43,109 nt of DNA from Bacillota bacterium (lineage in GTDB: Bacteria > Bacillota > Clostridia > Clostridiales > Clostridiaceae), in contig JAJXWJ010000026.1 of the NCBI GenBank assembly GCA_021781655.1, positions 1-43,109 of the forward strand, given 5' to 3'. The translations under genes and the position numbers were made by a program. Shown here piece after piece: positions 24,715 to 31,099 of this stretch (position 1 is the first letter of the stretch; the number at the start of each line of letters is the position of its first letter). The notes beneath the pieces were generated by a model, which was not told the origin of the DNA, did no database searches, and saw only the letters and a list, made by a program, of their open reading frames with translations.

Positions 24715-24763
24715 AAAGGGGACAGTTTCACAATAATAATATTGTGAAACTGTCCCCTTTTTT
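24715..24763 (+). terminator. Strong terminator, 21-bp perfect stem
   Basis: AAAGGGGACAGTTTCACAAT (24715-24734) and one more base pair perfectly with 24740-24760; the loop is four bases and the 3' arm runs into six T. The A tract on the 5' side would make it bidirectional in form. The core GGGGACAGTTTCAC could be a dispersed palindromic repeat. Confidence 0.9.
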
Positions 24764-24782
24764 GCAAATATAAAATATATGC

Positions 24783-24851: not shown

Positions 24852-27800
24852 TTGACAGAAGAGACAAAAAAATTTGTTCATTTACATGTTCATACCGAAT
24901 ACAGTTTATTAGATGGTTCTGGTAAGGTAAGGAAGCTTTTAAAAAGGGCTAAGGAACTAGGAATGGACAGTCTTGCAATTACAGATCATGGCGCCATGTA
25001 TGGAGTAGTAGATTTTTATAAAGCGGCAAAGGAAGAAGGCATTAAGCCTATAATAGGCTGTGAAATTTATGTTTCAGAGAAGTCTATGGCTATTAAAGAA
25101 AAAAATAATGATATTTATCATCTTGTATTATTAGTTAAAAATGAAACAGGATATAAAAATCTTATGAAAATAGTTTCCACTGCCTCAATAGAAGGATATT
25201 ACTACAAGCCTAGAGTTGACCATGAATATCTCCTTAAACATAGCGAAGGATTAATCGCCTTAAGTGCTTGCCTTGGTGGAGAAGTTCAAAAAAATATTTT
25301 AAATGGCAATATTAAAGGGGCAGAAAATGCTGCGTTATTTTATAAAGAAACCTTTAAGGATGGTTTCTATTTAGAGCTTCAAGATCATAAATTGGAGGAG
25401 CAGCTTAGAGTTTCAGAAGAGCTCATAAAGATGTCTAAAAAACTTAATATTCCTTTAGTAGCTACCAATGATGTTCATTACGTAAAAAAAGAAGATTGGA
25501 AATCTCATGATGTACTCCTTTGTATTCAAACAGGAAAAACTCTAGATGAAGAAAATAGAATGAGATACCAGTCAGGAGAATTTTACTTAAGATCCCCTGA
25601 AGAGATGTATGAGAGGTTTAATTATGCTGAAGAAGCTCTTTTAAACACTGTTAAAATTGCAGAAGAGTGCAATTTTGATTATGAATTTCACGTGTCAAAG
25701 CTTCCAAATTTTCCGCTTCCCGAAGGGCAAGATCATTTTGAGTATTTGAAGCAATTATGCGAAAAAGGCTTAAAAAAACTATATAACCCTATTTTAGAAG
25801 AGCTTAGTGAAAGGCTAGACTATGAACTTGGCATAATAAAAGAAATGGGTTATGTAGATTATTTCTTAATAGTTTGGGATTTTATAAGATTTGCAAATGA
25901 AAATGAAATAATGACAGGTCCTGGAAGGGGAAGTGCAGCTGGCTCCATAGTTGCATATACTTTGGGAATAACAAAAATCGATCCAATAAGATATAATTTG
26001 ATTTTTGAGCGTGGAGATGCGCTCGTAAAACTGGGTGAATTGCTGGAAGGCTAAACTAACGAGTAATTAGCATGCTAATCAGCAGCCAAGTCTGGGAAAA
26101 GCAATAAAAATGTACCAGAAAGGTTCAGAGACTAGAGGGATGAATAGCTTGGTAATAATTTCCTCCAAGAGTGCCCAGATCATTAAATATCGAAATCATC
26201 ACACATAAAAATGTTTATTTGAGAGAAATTATAAATATAATATTTTTATAAAAGGTGATGAAATATGTATATTAAAATTTGCGAGAAATGTGGAAAAAAA
26301 TTTGAAACAGAAATTATTCATAGAAGATTTTGTTGTAAAAGTTGTTCAAATAGTTTCAATACGAGTTTAAGAATGGTACCAGATGAAAATATTTTTAAAA
26401 GTGGACTTAATGAAATCAATGCATATATACTTGGAATTATATATTCCGATGGATGTTTATTTTTTGATAAAAAGTCTATTGAAAAATTTTATTTTTGGAT
26501 GTATACAGACGCAAATTTATATTTAAGTAGAAAAAAACGAATATTTATTGATATGATATAGTCCAAACTGAATTGGAAATAACCAATTGATGAAAATGAG
26601 GGAAACCTCCAGAGCGTAGGATAAAGAACCTACGGATAATACTATTGTTCTTAAATCCTGAAAGAGTAAGTATGCCAGATATAGATTCAGATTTTTGTTA
26701 TGAAAGAAGACAGGAAGTAATTGACTATGTTGTAGAAAAGTACGGAAAAAGTAATGTATCTCAAATTGTAACCTTTGGAACGATGTCCGCTAGAGCGTGT
26801 ATTCGTGATGTTGGAAGAGCTATGAACTATTCTTATGCTGAAGTTGATAAAATAGCAAAGATGATACCAAGTTTGCAAAATAAAAACGTAACAATAGATA
26901 AAGCTCTAGAAATAAATGCAGAGTTAAAGCTTATATATGAAACAGATGAAAGGGTTAAACAACTTATAGATGTCTCACTTGAGCTAGAAGGACTGCCAAG
27001 ACATACGTCCACTCATGCAGCAGGAGTTGTTATTGCTTCCGAGCCACTTGTAAATTTTGTACCACTTTTAAGAAATGAAGAAGCTATAGTAAGCCAATTT
27101 ACAATGGGAACCTTGGAAGAACTTGGTCTTTTAAAAATGGATTTTCTTGGACTTAGAACCTTAACTGTATTAAGAGATGCAGTTAATATGATAAAAGCAA
27201 ACAAAGGTGTGGAAATCGATTTGGATACCTTAGGCTTTGATGACAAAGCTGTGTACAAAATGATAGGAGAAGGTAAAACTGTTGGCGTATTCCAGTTAGA
27301 ATCCCCTGGAATGACAAGCTTTATGAAGGAGCTTAAGCCAGAAAGTCTAGAAGATATCATAGCAGGAATTAGTCTTTATAGACCAGGTCCTATGGCGGAA
27401 ATACCTAGATATATTAAAAACAAAAATGATCCTTCTGGAGTAGAATATGTAACTCCGGAACTTTCGGATATTCTGTCTGTAACATATGGATGTATGGTGT
27501 ATCAAGGTGCGAAACGTTGCTAGAACAAATATACGCAGAAATGGTATTTAGAATCTAGCGGGATAATGCAATTTATTCTAACTTTCTATTTAATAGTTAG
27601 GGGAAGTTCCTAATTTGGATTTAAGCTGAGAATCTAACTCTAATACTCCGCCATGCAATATTAAATAGTCATAATATTGTATGAAGCGCGGTGAAGTCAG
27701 TGAAAATCAGATCTGTGAAGTGATTAGAAAAGTAACTGGGAGGTCATATTACACCATGCATACGAGAGGAATCTTTGTTTTACGGCTCATACCATACAAT

Positions 27801-30800
27801 GCTTAATAAGAAGGCATTAATTTCAGTAGCAAAGTTTGTATTCTTGGTTATGAATTTTGTGGTTAGTATCACTATTTAACCGTCTTTAGTTTTTCAGCTA
27901 AATAACGAAAAGATTGCTGATGAGTCATAGAAGGATGCTAAAGTGTAATTTAAGACTATAATAGAAGGAACGTTTGAACTTGAGGAGGTAATGTTAAGGG
28001 AGACTATTGCCCAATGTGCCTAATAAGTAGGAAATGACTTATGAATCTCAAGGGCAGCAGCTCGTAGTAGTTATGAAGTAAGGTAATTCTTATGGAGCGA
28101 AGGAGCATAGTTATTTATAAACAAATCATTTAGAGTATATTTTAGGGGATAAATCAAATACTAATATTATCTCTAGGAGGTAACATTAATGCCTAAAATA
28201 TATTCAGAAGAAATAAAGAAAGAAGCAGTAGAATTATATAAAAAAGGATTATCGGCACCTGAAGTTTCAAAAATGATAAGTGTCATTGGGAGTAATACCA
28301 AGGAAGACTGGTAAAGAGTCATTTCCAATAGAAATCTCAGCTAAGTTATTTCATCATTTTATAAGAGGTTTTTTCGATGGTGATGGTATAACGGATATTA
28401 AGAGAAGAAGAAGTGGGTTTATTAGTAGTAATGATATGCTTAAAGATATCTTAATAAAATTAGATAATCCAATATTAACAATTCATAAGGTAAAAAGAAG
28501 TGAAAATATTTATTACTTTTTGGGAGGAATAAAGTTTTCTAGAGTACTTTATGATTATATGTATTCTGATGCAAATGTATGGTTAACAAGAAAAAAAGAG
28601 AGATTAAAAATGATTTGTTTTAAATAATGGAACGCCGTATGCGGGGAAACTCGCACGTACGGTGTGAGGTGGGGGAAAAATATTACTGACCGTTAAGACG
28701 AAGATAATATTTACCTATCACTATAACAGGTAATGCAAATAGTTCGTGATTTAGCAGGATATTCCATGGGTCGAAGTGACCTTGTAAGACGTGCCATGTC
28801 AAAGAAAAAACATCATGTTATGGAAGAGGAGCGACATAATTTTATCCACGGTATTGTAGACGAAAGCGGTAACATTGAAGTTGAAGGTTGCTTAAGAAAA
28901 GGCATTTCTGAAGTAGCTGCTAATAAAATTTTTGATTCCATGATGGACTTTGCAAGTTACGCATTCTGAAAAGAATTTATTGTATAAAAATCATTTGTTT
29001 TCATAAACTAAATTTATTAAAATTTTGAGGTGCTTTTATGGAAATAAAGAAAAAACTTTCGTATAGAGAATTAAGTTTAAAAGATAAGGAAAAAATTATT
29101 ATTGAATATTACAAAAATTCACTTAGTTTTATCGAAATGTCTGAGGCATTAGCATATTCTGAAAGATCAATTTCAAGAGTTTTAAAAGAAGCAAATATAA
29201 ATACTAAAAGATTAAATAGATATTGTTTAAATGAAAGTTATTTCAAGGTAATAGATTCAGAACCAAAAGCTTATATATTAACAAAGCAAAATGTAATATT
29301 ATAAAGTATATTCATCCTTGTTATAGTTTTAATTTATTAGGTACTGAGACATTCTTGAAGAATATAGCAGTAGAAACAAAATTTGAATATGTTAAAATTC
29401 TTGATACAAAATGTGAAGATATAAAAGAATTAAGGATATGTGCAAAATGTGAATTTGATAAAATATTTAATTATTTATATGAAGGGTCAACGATTTTTTT
29501 AAATAGAAAATACAATAAATGGCTGGAAATAAAGAGTGCCTTTGCGATGTGAGTCGCAAAGAAAATAGGGTGAATTGCAGGAAAAACCTTAGAGTCTTAA
29601 ATACTAACTTATCCTAGAAATAGTGATAAGGGCAATGAGTAATTTCAAAGGTAAAGTAATAATTTTAAGAATTGGTTAACCCGCAGCCAAGCATCTAGAT
29701 AGGCATGAAAGTATAGATGAAGGTTCAGAGACTAGGGGAATGAACAGCCTAGGTAATAATTTCCTCCACGAGTGCCCTATATCTATTATATATAAATAGA
29801 TAATGAGATAGTCCGATACTTTATAGAAATATAAAGAGACAAGGGTAAACTCCTTGTTATAACATAAATGTCAATAAATCTCATGCTGCCAGCTACGCAG
29901 TAGTGGGGTACTTTACAGCATATTTAATGAAATACTATCCCACTGAATTTATAGCAGCAATGCTAAACAGTGTAATTGGAATCAATGAAAAGGTAGCGTA
30001 TTATATACGCTTTGCAAAGGAAATAGGAATAGAGCTTTTACCTCCAAATATTAATGAAGGCTATTCTAAGTTCACAGTTAAAGGTGACAATATTTATTTT
30101 GGTTTAGCTTCCGTTAAAAATGTTGGTGTAAATGTTATTGAAAACATTGTTAAAGCAAGAAACCAAAAAGGAAGCTTTACTAGCTTAGTTGATTTTTGTA
30201 ATAAGATCGAAGTAAAAGAAATAAATAAAAGAGCAGTGGAAAGTTTAATAAAAGCAGGTGCCTTCGACTCATTAAAAGTTTATAGGTCAAGACTTTTAGC
30301 AGTCCATGAAAAAATTCTTGATAGCGTGAGCTCGCAAAAAAAGAAAAATATAGAGGGACAGCTTAGTCTATTTGCAGATTTTTCAGAAGTGAAAAGTGAA
30401 GCTATGGAAATTAAATATCCAGAAATAAAAGAATTTGAAAAAAAATATTTGCTTTCAATGGAAAAGGAAATGACAGGAATATATATTTCGGGACATCCAT
30501 TAGATGAATATAAAGAAACTTTAGATTTAGCAGTTAATACTAAAATTTCAGATTTAATTGTTGAAGAAGCTTTAGAAGGTGAAGTAGCAGAAAGTTACAA
30601 GGTAGAAGATGGTGCAAGGGTAATAATTGGAGGTATAATTTCAGAAGTAAGTAAAAAAATAACAAGGAATAATGCTATGATGGCTTTTGTTAAGGTTGAA
30701 GATATGTATGGAAGTATAGAGGTGGTAATATTTCCAAAGGTACTAGAAAAATGCATAAGCTTTATTGCCGAAGATTCTTTAGTTATAGTAAGTGGAAGAG

Positions 30801-31099
30801 TAAGTGTAAAGGAAGACGAACAGCCCAAAATATTAGCAGAAGATATAAAACCTTTATTAAAGATAAACGAAGATAAGATTTATATTTTAATCGAAGAGCA
30901 AAATGAATTAAAAGCTGCTATGAAAAAAATAAGTACTGTAGCCATAAATTATAGAGGAGACTGTCCTATATACATTTGCACAAAAAAAGAAAGAAAAAAA
31001 TTTTTAATATCAAACGACTTAAGATTAGACAGCTCAATAGATAGCATATTAGAACTTAAAGGTATTTTTGGAGAAGAAAATATAAAGGTTCAAAAATAA
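24852..31099 (+). CDS. dnaE: DNA polymerase III alpha subunit, four exons split by three introns
   Basis: Exons 24852-26012, 26648-27506, 28725-28964 and 29871-31099 sum to 3489 bases, giving one uninterrupted frame of 1162 residues, the normal DnaE length. The start is TTG with GAAGGTG upstream. Domains: PHP (residues about 7-200, [14 protein letters not shown] and ITDHGAMYG), polymerase palm with [10 protein letters not shown] (356-365), the catalytic aspartates of PDIDSDF (Asp398, Asp400) and KMDFLGLRT (Asp552), fingers with GCMVYQEQVM and NKSHAASYA, a helix-hairpin-helix region, and an OB domain (about 970-1060). Each intron interrupts one of the most conserved segments: before [13 protein letters not shown], inside the Glu codon of YQEQVM, and inside the Phe codon of AFNKSH. 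Without splicing, translation stops 14 codons into intron 1. No intact second copy is in the window. Splicing is inferred, not observed. Confidence 0.95.
26013..26647 (+). mobile_element. Group I self-splicing intron 1 in dnaE
   Basis: 635 bases. The 5' exon ends in U (GAGCGU) and the intron in G, as the class requires. P1 is exact: exon GAGCGU (26007-26012) pairs with the internal guide GCGCUC (26019-26024), including the diagnostic U-G wobble at the splice site. Core elements: P AATTGCTGGAAGG (26038-26050), Q AATCAGCAGCCAAG (26077-26090), R GTTCAGAGACTAG (26123-26135) and S GATATAGTCC (26555-26564). A small endonuclease gene fills the loop between R and S (P8). Splicing restores IFER|FLNPERV in frame. 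Boundaries are certain to the base by frame, conservation and the U/G rule. Confidence 0.93.
26265..26561 (+). CDS. Internally deleted LAGLIDADG endonuclease in intron 1
   Basis: 98 residues, about half the usual length or less. It has an N-terminal zinc-finger-like segment (Cys6, Cys9, Cys24, Cys27), a linker, one LAGLIDADG-type motif in [15 protein letters not shown] (about 52-66), and then jumps to a family C-terminus ([16 protein letters not shown]). The middle of the nuclease domain is missing in frame, so cleavage activity is unlikely. AAAGGTG lies before the ATG. The stop codon falls inside the S element of the intron core, so the coding and ribozyme sequences overlap. It may still be translated; a maturase-like role is conceivable but unsupported. 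Confidence 0.8.
   Translation: MYIKICEKCGKKFETEIIHRRFCCKSCSNSFNTSLRMVPDENIFKSGLNEINAYILGIIYSDGCLFFDKKSIEKFYFWMYTDANLYLSRKKRIFIDMI
27507..28724 (+). mobile_element. Group II intron 2 in dnaE, without reverse transcriptase
   Basis: 1218 bases. It opens with GTGCG and ends in AT (GUGYG...AY). Exon pairings are visible: IBS2 ATGGTGT (27494-27500) is perfectly complementary to EBS2 ACACCAT (27751-27757), and IBS1 ATCAAG (27501-27506) pairs with EBS1 candidate CTTGGT (27843-27848) with one wobble. Domain V is clear at 28632-28663: stem strand CCGTATGCG, a GGAAAC cap and CGCACGTACGG, with a CGC catalytic triad. Domain VI follows with a candidate branch A at 28717, eight bases from the 3' end. Splicing restores MVYQ-E-QVMQIV, with the Glu codon split G|AA. 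Domain IV contains a damaged LAGLIDADG gene instead of the usual reverse transcriptase. Confidence 0.92.
28189..28627 (+). pseudogene. Broken LAGLIDADG endonuclease in group II intron domain IV
   Basis: Two pieces in different frames. The first, 28189-28314 (AGGAGG at 28175-28180), encodes a helix-turn-helix start ([20 protein letters not shown], then LSAPEVSKM). After about residue 30 the frame is lost, and homology resumes in the next frame from 28280 with [14 protein letters not shown], the second LAGLIDADG motif [12 protein letters not shown], and a family C-terminus [17 protein letters not shown] to 28627. The first LAGLIDADG motif and the region between are gone. The protein cannot be an active nuclease. 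Its stop codon lies four bases before domain V. Confidence 0.85.
28965..29870 (+). mobile_element. Group I self-splicing intron 3 in dnaE
   Basis: 906 bases. The two-base ambiguity (TC) at the joint is resolved by the U/G rule: exon ...GCAU, intron ...AAAUG, exon UCAAUAAA, restoring AFNKSH. Core elements: P AATTGCAGGAAAAACC (29573-29588), Q AACCCGCAGCCAAG (29678-29691), R GTTCAGAGACTAG (29723-29735), S GAGATAGTCC (29805-29814). The guide that aligns with that of intron 1 is GUGAGUCGC (about 29550-29558). It pairs with exon GUUACGCAU at seven of nine positions with a terminal U-G, so P1 is less certain. This places the endonuclease remnant in a giant P1 loop, 5' of the core. Confidence 0.88.
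29038..29552 (+). pseudogene. Broken LAGLIDADG endonuclease in intron 3
   Basis: Two pieces. 29038-29304 (GAGGTG before the ATG) encodes an N-terminal helix-turn-helix ([20 protein letters not shown]) and a linker ([14 protein letters not shown]) that stops exactly where a LAGLIDADG motif should begin. In another frame, from about 29280 to 29552, lies a family C-terminal half ([12 protein letters not shown], then [20 protein letters not shown]). The LAGLIDADG motif itself is deleted and the frame shifted, so there can be no nuclease. The C-terminal end overlaps the hairpin 29540-29561 and the candidate internal guide sequence. Confidence 0.85.

Follow-up and report, generated by a model that had tools for sequence, protein, structure and literature searches.

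How can a gene for a DNA polymerase be interrupted three times and still encode its protein, and how did the interruptions come to lie there? This question is raised by dnaE in a clostridial DNA stretch of 43,109 nucleotides (referred to here as the window; contig JAJXWJ010000026.1 of assembly GCA_021781655.1, Clostridiaceae), in which the gene is divided into four exons by a group I, a group II and a second group I intron. This arrangement had been proposed from the sequence of the window (the original prediction), and both Rfam and covariation with the introns of relatives bear it out. What the prediction overlooked was that the introns carry remnants of LAGLIDADG homing endonuclease (LHE) genes, and that the group II intron is of the LHE type, not of the reverse transcriptase (RT) type. 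On comparative grounds we consider it very probable that dnaE is a working gene whose three introns are self-spliced, that these introns, the group II one included, spread by LAGLIDADG homing, and that the copies in the window are now immobile.

The exons, joined at 26012/26648, 27506/28725 and 28964/29871, form a frame of 1163 codons whose sole stop is terminal, and which therefore encodes a DnaE of the predicted 1162 residues. Over residues 5-1160 this product matches the NCBIfam profile PRK06826 (DNA polymerase III subunit alpha) with 1901 bits. The intron boundaries had been placed exactly to the base; their position within conserved polymerase motifs, which we take to be the catalytic ones, was borne out as well. 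The gene had also been called the replicative polymerase. Since the host also has PolC (a 1462-aa open frame on contig C135; G, L and C numbers are our handles for genomes, loci and contigs), the gene is better named a DnaE-type polymerase. Because PolC is present, the degree to which dnaE is essential in this host is inferred.

PolC also gives some room to the view that dnaE is a dying pseudogene, tolerated as PolC replicates the chromosome, and one relative (G095, a 96% complete draft) shows PolC-type matches only and no DnaE. We regard this as very unlikely, given that neither frameshifts nor stops occur in any of the four exons, that the splice elements of all three introns are kept, with covariation, and that one match spans the intron sites (residues 380-765) in 123 of the 147 genomes that were searched with the joined DnaE. 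Moreover, the ratio of nonsynonymous to synonymous substitution rates (dN/dS, NG86) of the exons is low, with values of about 0.07-0.14 in comparisons with seven intact dnaE loci, with dS near saturation and two of the seven loci giving identical values, probably from one genome. An intact intronless copy elsewhere in the genome, which together with a lack of transcript from this locus had been named beforehand as speaking against the split gene, did not appear: in the host assembly, a draft of 168 contigs and 3.7 Mb that is 97.7% complete and in which the absence of a gene is not final, no second dnaE was found, and the matches were the split gene and PolC only.

Both Rfam group II models match intron 2 above their cutoffs, RF02004 (domains I-IV) at 27577-27750 with 51.9 bits (cutoff 34.5) and RF00029 at 28630-28724 with 60.4 bits (cutoff 40), and a scan of the whole window at the gathering threshold reported this intron alone. 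Hallmarks of the class are present: a GUGYG start, an AY end, a bulged branch A, and pairing of exon-binding site 1 (EBS1) with intron-binding site 1 (IBS1), the latter reading AUCAAG in the window and ACCAAG in two relatives. Across seven group II introns, 96.5% of the predicted structure was paired and 85 of 149 pairs had changed on both sides, which none of 500 shuffles equalled on any of the five measures; in slid controls the paired fraction was 39-46%. Since the structures used for covariation, here and below, were taken from the same alignments, absolute percentages are biased upward and the shuffles are the safer guide. The LHE gene of intron 2 has kept its second LAGLIDADG motif, the first being deleted and the frame broken, and its LAGLIDADG_3 score (15.5 bits) falls under the Pfam cutoff of 22.5.

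Intron 3 matches RF00028 at 29515-29836 with 75 bits (cutoff 50). Its P1 helix pairs the exon bases GCAU (28961-28964) with GUGC at 29536-29539, leaving a U.G pair at the splice site; the final base is G29870. Because P1 is closed by these distant bases, the LHE remnant of this intron, whose HTH_38 match lies under its cutoff, is placed in the P1 loop. Among eight introns at this site, 41 of 79 predicted pairs had changed on both sides, a count made with no shuffle control. The insertion point lies about 4 nt downstream of the position matching the extein junction of the cyanobacterial split DnaE. In the joined protein the match to PRK09532 runs up to residue 756 and that to PRK07373 starts at residue 749; these are, we assume, the two halves of that split protein. 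Such a junction (extein AEY/CFN in the consulted part of PMC8484483), together with the profile ends, could suggest that the exon products are separate polypeptides which assemble, or that the inserts are inteins. We find this scarcely credible, as the exons start and end inside conserved motifs and the inserts have group I and group II structures with correct ends. The cyanobacterial intein shares the FN-KSH motif with the site of intron 3, but acts at the protein level and is an unrelated element. Inteins in the window were ruled out, every reading frame of each insert being interrupted by stops.

Table 1. Features of the intron-split dnaE locus, in window positions (ORF, open reading frame; HTH, helix-turn-helix)
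Feature	Positions	Strand	Remarks and basis
dnaE exon 1	24852-26012	+	387 codons, TTG start
Intron 1, group I	26013-26647	+	Phase 0 after codon 387 (IFER/FLNPER); RF00028 below cutoff, alignment and covariation
Remnant ORF in intron 1, 98 aa	26265-26561	+	One LAGLIDADG-like motif (short match); LHE-like C-terminus by eye
dnaE exon 2	26648-27506	+	Exon joining
Intron 2, group II	27507-28724	+	After nt 1 of codon 674 (YQ/EQVM); GUGCG start, AU end; RF02004, RF00029
Probable EBS1, CUUGGU	27843-27848	+	Invariant in 7 introns; complementary to IBS1 at 27501-27506; pairing read by eye
Broken LHE gene in domain IV of intron 2	28189-28627	+	HTH-like N-terminal piece 28189-28278; C-terminal 115 aa 28280-28627
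Domains V and VI of intron 2	28630-28724	+	Bulged A eight bases from 3' end
dnaE exon 3	28725-28964	+	240 nt; exon joining
Intron 3, group I	28965-29870	+	After nt 1 of codon 754 (SYAF/NKSHA); RF00028
Broken LHE gene in intron 3	29038-29552	+	HTH half 29038-29304, C-terminal half ending at 29552; deletions have removed both LAGLIDADG motifs
dnaE exon 4 and stop codon	29871-31099	+	Exon joining, profile match of product

The case for homing comes from relatives of the window. A group II intron of the same kind occupies the same dnaE nucleotide (codon 674) in eight family genomes, the window included, and the LHE genes within them are in different states: two are open, one has a stop (G254), three are deleted (G183, G170 and the window), and two introns are ORF-less (G003 and G196). 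The C. polynesiense intron encodes an intact LHE of 310 aa with two motifs (LAGLIDADG_3, 36.1 bits, cutoff 22.5), and that of G153 is open throughout (31.1 bits), with an N-terminus above the cutoffs of HTH models. In position the intact ORF comes after the domain I-IV match and before domain V, which places it in domain IV. The distribution is narrow: an 18-base loop motif of domain VI occurs once each in exactly 8 of 206 family genomes, always at dnaE site 674. Of 225 genomes of the order, a search with the LHE (E <= 1e-25) picked out the site-674 clade in 6; it could not detect the two members that lack the ORF. The enzyme is under purifying selection (dN/dS 0.08-0.32 over 15 pairs, fragments included, with dS mostly above 1). 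A tree of 31 LHE rows, from which the broken L069, L076, L189 and L191 and the duplicates L152 and L158 were omitted, splits by insertion site, with clades for site 674 (100/99), site 754 (100/100) and site 398 (100/99); this is the pattern expected under site-specific homing. A group I intron in dnaE itself may have been the source of the site-674 LHE, a proposal for which homology is shown and the donor is not.

Homologues of the enzyme were also found in a phage collection, in 127 of 50,697 records, with 29.6-35.9% identity among the 20 matches listed; a scan of IMG/VR gave no relatives, and a PDB sequence search with the intact LHE gave no match at E <= 0.01. The best of the listed phage matches to the site-674 enzyme, in Alicyclobacillus phage MMB025 (L203), lies between two pieces annotated as DNA polymerase, and an Rfam search of that locus returned no intron. 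In G247 (L190) an LHE homologue is fused in frame inside a 516-aa protein, which reads to us like ThyX; this insertion is possibly an intein.

It might be argued that the site-674 intron is an ordinary RT-mobilised intron, that its RT was lost, and that the LHE acquired later is a passenger which plays no part in moving it. An RT-type group II intron does lie at the same nucleotide in C. algidicarnis, and its domain V is 92% identical to that of the window over 53 nt. In the RNA tree, however, this intron groups with the RT introns of codon 402 (100/99) and not with the LHE lineage, whose own group receives just 82/85, the program warning of long branches. Furthermore, the LHE-type site-674 introns (lengths 745-1709 nt) showed no RT ORF, and the selection on the LHE, with a single clade tied to site 674, also speaks against a passenger. 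We therefore judge the passenger explanation unlikely and retain homing by the LHE. A recent replacement of RT by LHE in place, within the C. algidicarnis intron, was considered separately and rejected on the same grouping, with the same long-branch warning.

Several findings weigh against the reading in which all three introns are self-splicing elements spread by homing, and the first concern intron 1. The Rfam check proposed along with the original prediction placed introns 2 and 3 above their cutoffs; intron 1, at 25969-26192, scored 36.5 bits with RF00028 (E = 7e-7) and did not reach the curated cutoff of 50. Comparison with site-matched introns settles it as group I despite this score, as far as alignment can: seven site-387 introns of other genomes reach 63.8-96.7 bits and align with it, 28 of 70 pairs have changed on both sides in this set, and 98.9% of pair cells hold. 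None of 500 shuffles reached four of the five measures (three of them reached the fifth, "further pair types"), and in slid controls the paired fraction dropped to 30-45%. Its P1 pairs the exon bases GAGCGU (26007-26012) with GCGCTC at 26019-26024, with a U.G at the splice site, and the final base is G26647. The ORF of intron 1, placed in the loop of a P8-like helix, is probably an LHE remnant; it has no Pfam LHE match and was recognised by a short motif only. All seven other site-387 introns aligned lack an LHE, so that intron 1 may or may not have arrived by homing.

Intron 2 of the window encodes no maturase, and within the host assembly RVT_1 matches once only, in a separate group II intron on contig C50. 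An AlphaFold2 model of the intact LHE had a mean pLDDT of 42 and was uninformative, so that the fold rests on Pfam and motifs. The record of transfer is mixed. Between G254, which belongs to another genus, and G153, G183, G170 and G196, the introns are 81-82% identical and the 5' exons 73-75%; between G196 and G153, G183 and G170, the values are 92-93% and 85-86%. The greater likeness of intron over exon in these contrasts, two at most and made without a synonymous-site control, supports horizontal transfer for some members, not for the window. Among G153, G183 and G170 themselves, similarity in the intron roughly equals that in the exon, and in all distant pairs, those of the window included, the intron is less alike (56-66%) than the exon (69-76%). 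The separate intron of contig C50 (L080, C50:1-3000) has a domain I-IV match of 124.5 bits, a domain V match and a 415-aa RT.

Taken together, the analysis confirms the observation of an intron-split dnaE; what we infer from sequence is that the introns are spliced in vivo, that intact LHEs cleave their target and that homing occurs. In the proposed scheme, the dnaE transcript would lose its three introns before full-length DnaE is made. In introns 1 and 3 a guanosine would attack at the U.G pair of P1, the exons then being joined at the terminal G; in intron 2 the bulged A of domain VI would attack the 5' site, held by the EBS1-IBS1 pairing. In-frame stops occur 42, 17 and 5 bases past the 5' splice sites of the three introns, and would end translation of the unspliced message and leave the RNA free to fold. 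An LHE would cut intronless dnaE and repair would copy the intron in, with one enzyme clade for each of the sites 398, 674 and 754, and the group II intron would thus home at the DNA level, driven by the endonuclease, in place of RT-driven retrohoming. The enzymes of the window have lost one or both active-site motifs; as the LHEs are broken, the intron copies are probably immobile and would splice without moving any longer. This is how a late stage of the homing cycle would be expected to look, with introns kept as the host needs the spliced gene and with the endonucleases gone.

Upstream of the gene, a long hairpin followed by a T run (window positions 24715-24764, read by eye) separates the preceding gene from dnaE. 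This is a likely terminator, which makes a promoter of its own probable for dnaE. Directly before the TTG start stands a ribosome-site-like stretch, AAGAAGGTG.

The three introns of mixed class in one dnaE had been presented as a rarity, which proved to be overstated. Counting only RNA introns with Rfam support, 13 of the 147 genomes (host included) carry introns in dnaE; a further 11, in which dnaE is fragmentary, absent or frameshifted, were not judged (G016, G036, G044, G095, G105, G108, G129, G134, G138, G139 and G140), and G056, with an in-frame insert near codon 360, is counted among the 123 spanned genomes. In the family set at least 20 of 206 genomes have such introns, at few fixed sites (10 of the 13, together with G153, G170, G183, G196, G254 and with G154, G180, G213, G223, G253); this is a lower bound, since genomes outside the 147-genome search were found solely through the LHE or the domain VI motif. 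In 80 named clostridial loci fetched by exon 2, dnaE lay in more than one piece in six. The recurrent sites are codon 387 (group I), about 398 (group I), 402 (RT group II), about 668 (group I, G093), 674 (group II, LHE- or RT-type), 754 (group I), 759 (RT group II) and about 360 (in-frame, intein-like). Three insertions are present in dnaE of the window, G003, G010, G093, G153, G170 and Clostridium sp. SM-530-WT-3G, where the triples of G010, G153 and G170 include one insert unclassified by Rfam and that of SM-530-WT-3G an in-frame insert. Both intron classes, with Rfam support, occur in seven genomes (the window, G003, C. polynesiense, G153, G170, G196 and G254). The triple, mixed-class dnaE of the window is striking, not singular, a notable case of a recurrent pattern.

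Some inserts were not classified. A group I match (E <= 0.01) was absent from seven of nine further loci with an LHE at dnaE 398 or 754 (L170, L180, L181, L182, L186, L188 and L189), from the site-398 inserts of G057, G170 and G183, from the site-754 insert of G010 and from the 758/759 insert of G153. The G010 insert aligns with the group I set despite the lack of an Rfam match. We call all of these inserts, not proven group I introns, and excluded them from the Rfam-supported counts; L170, L181, L188 and similar LHE-bearing inserts are perhaps divergent group I introns. Other occupants of the gene were seen as well. G093 (L077), from another family, has group I introns at codon 387, near codon 668 and at codon 754, all three short and none with an ORF as long as 60 aa. 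At codons 402 (L068, L075), 759 (L073, L156) and 674 (L071) lie group II introns that contain long RT-like frames and have ACCTATC-type domain VI ends. In G056 (L079) and Clostridium sp. SM-530-WT-3G (L152), in-frame inserts of about 420 aa at PGRG/S of DnaE (codon about 360) begin with Cys, end in HN and are intein-like.

In the consulted portion of a 2026 survey of 753 group II-LHE introns, these elements are described as nearly confined to mitochondria, with rns-1396 of Thiotrichaceae 16S rRNA as the sole bacterial family (PMC13190283); its main text contains neither of the strings "dnae" and "clostridi". Like rns-1396, the site-674 introns are group II ribozymes whose domain IV encodes a LAGLIDADG protein, not an RT; in many members of the group the LHEs are degenerate (PMC13190283). 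The two differ in that rns-1396 is there given as having IIC RNA, a single-motif LHE and insertion in 16S rRNA (PMC13190283), whereas all eight site-674 members lie in codon 674 of a protein gene, dnaE, in clostridia, with an LHE of about 310 aa that has an HTH-like N-terminus and two motifs. Fungal and green algal mitochondria have group II-LHE introns in which an endonuclease likewise replaces the RT, as the parts consulted state (PMC13190283, PMC4424553), but these are organellar and occupy other genes and sites. Fungal group II-intron LHEs have been shown to cut intronless targets, according to the portion used of a review (PMC4424553). Bacterial group I introns in protein genes have been described from flagellin, recA and nrdE, some with homing endonuclease genes; the part of this 2014 review that was consulted does not name dnaE ("dnae", 0 occurrences; PMC3984707). 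Ours share the location in protein genes, and differ in using several sites of one gene, beside group II introns. No report of these clostridial introns was found in the open-licence literature searched, mostly at abstract level.

To conclude, judged by sequence against the portion of the survey cited above, the site-674 introns look like a second bacterial group II-LHE family, located in a protein gene of Bacillota. With some reserve, we lean towards the wider proposal that a bacterial group II lineage has exchanged retrotransposition for endonuclease homing, and that it passes from one clostridial genus to another by way of one nucleotide of dnaE, the gene being a hotspot shared with group I, RT-type group II and intein-like inserts, and all stages of the homing cycle (empty, intact, decaying and ORF-less) surviving at this site. 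Over a span of about 400 codons, a single polymerase gene has gathered intein-like in-frame inserts beside introns of group I and of two kinds of group II. A family in a bacterial protein gene whose members, all inserted at the same site, range from intact through decaying to ORF-less would offer a tractable bacterial setting for studying how a ribozyme trades RNA-based for DNA-based mobility.

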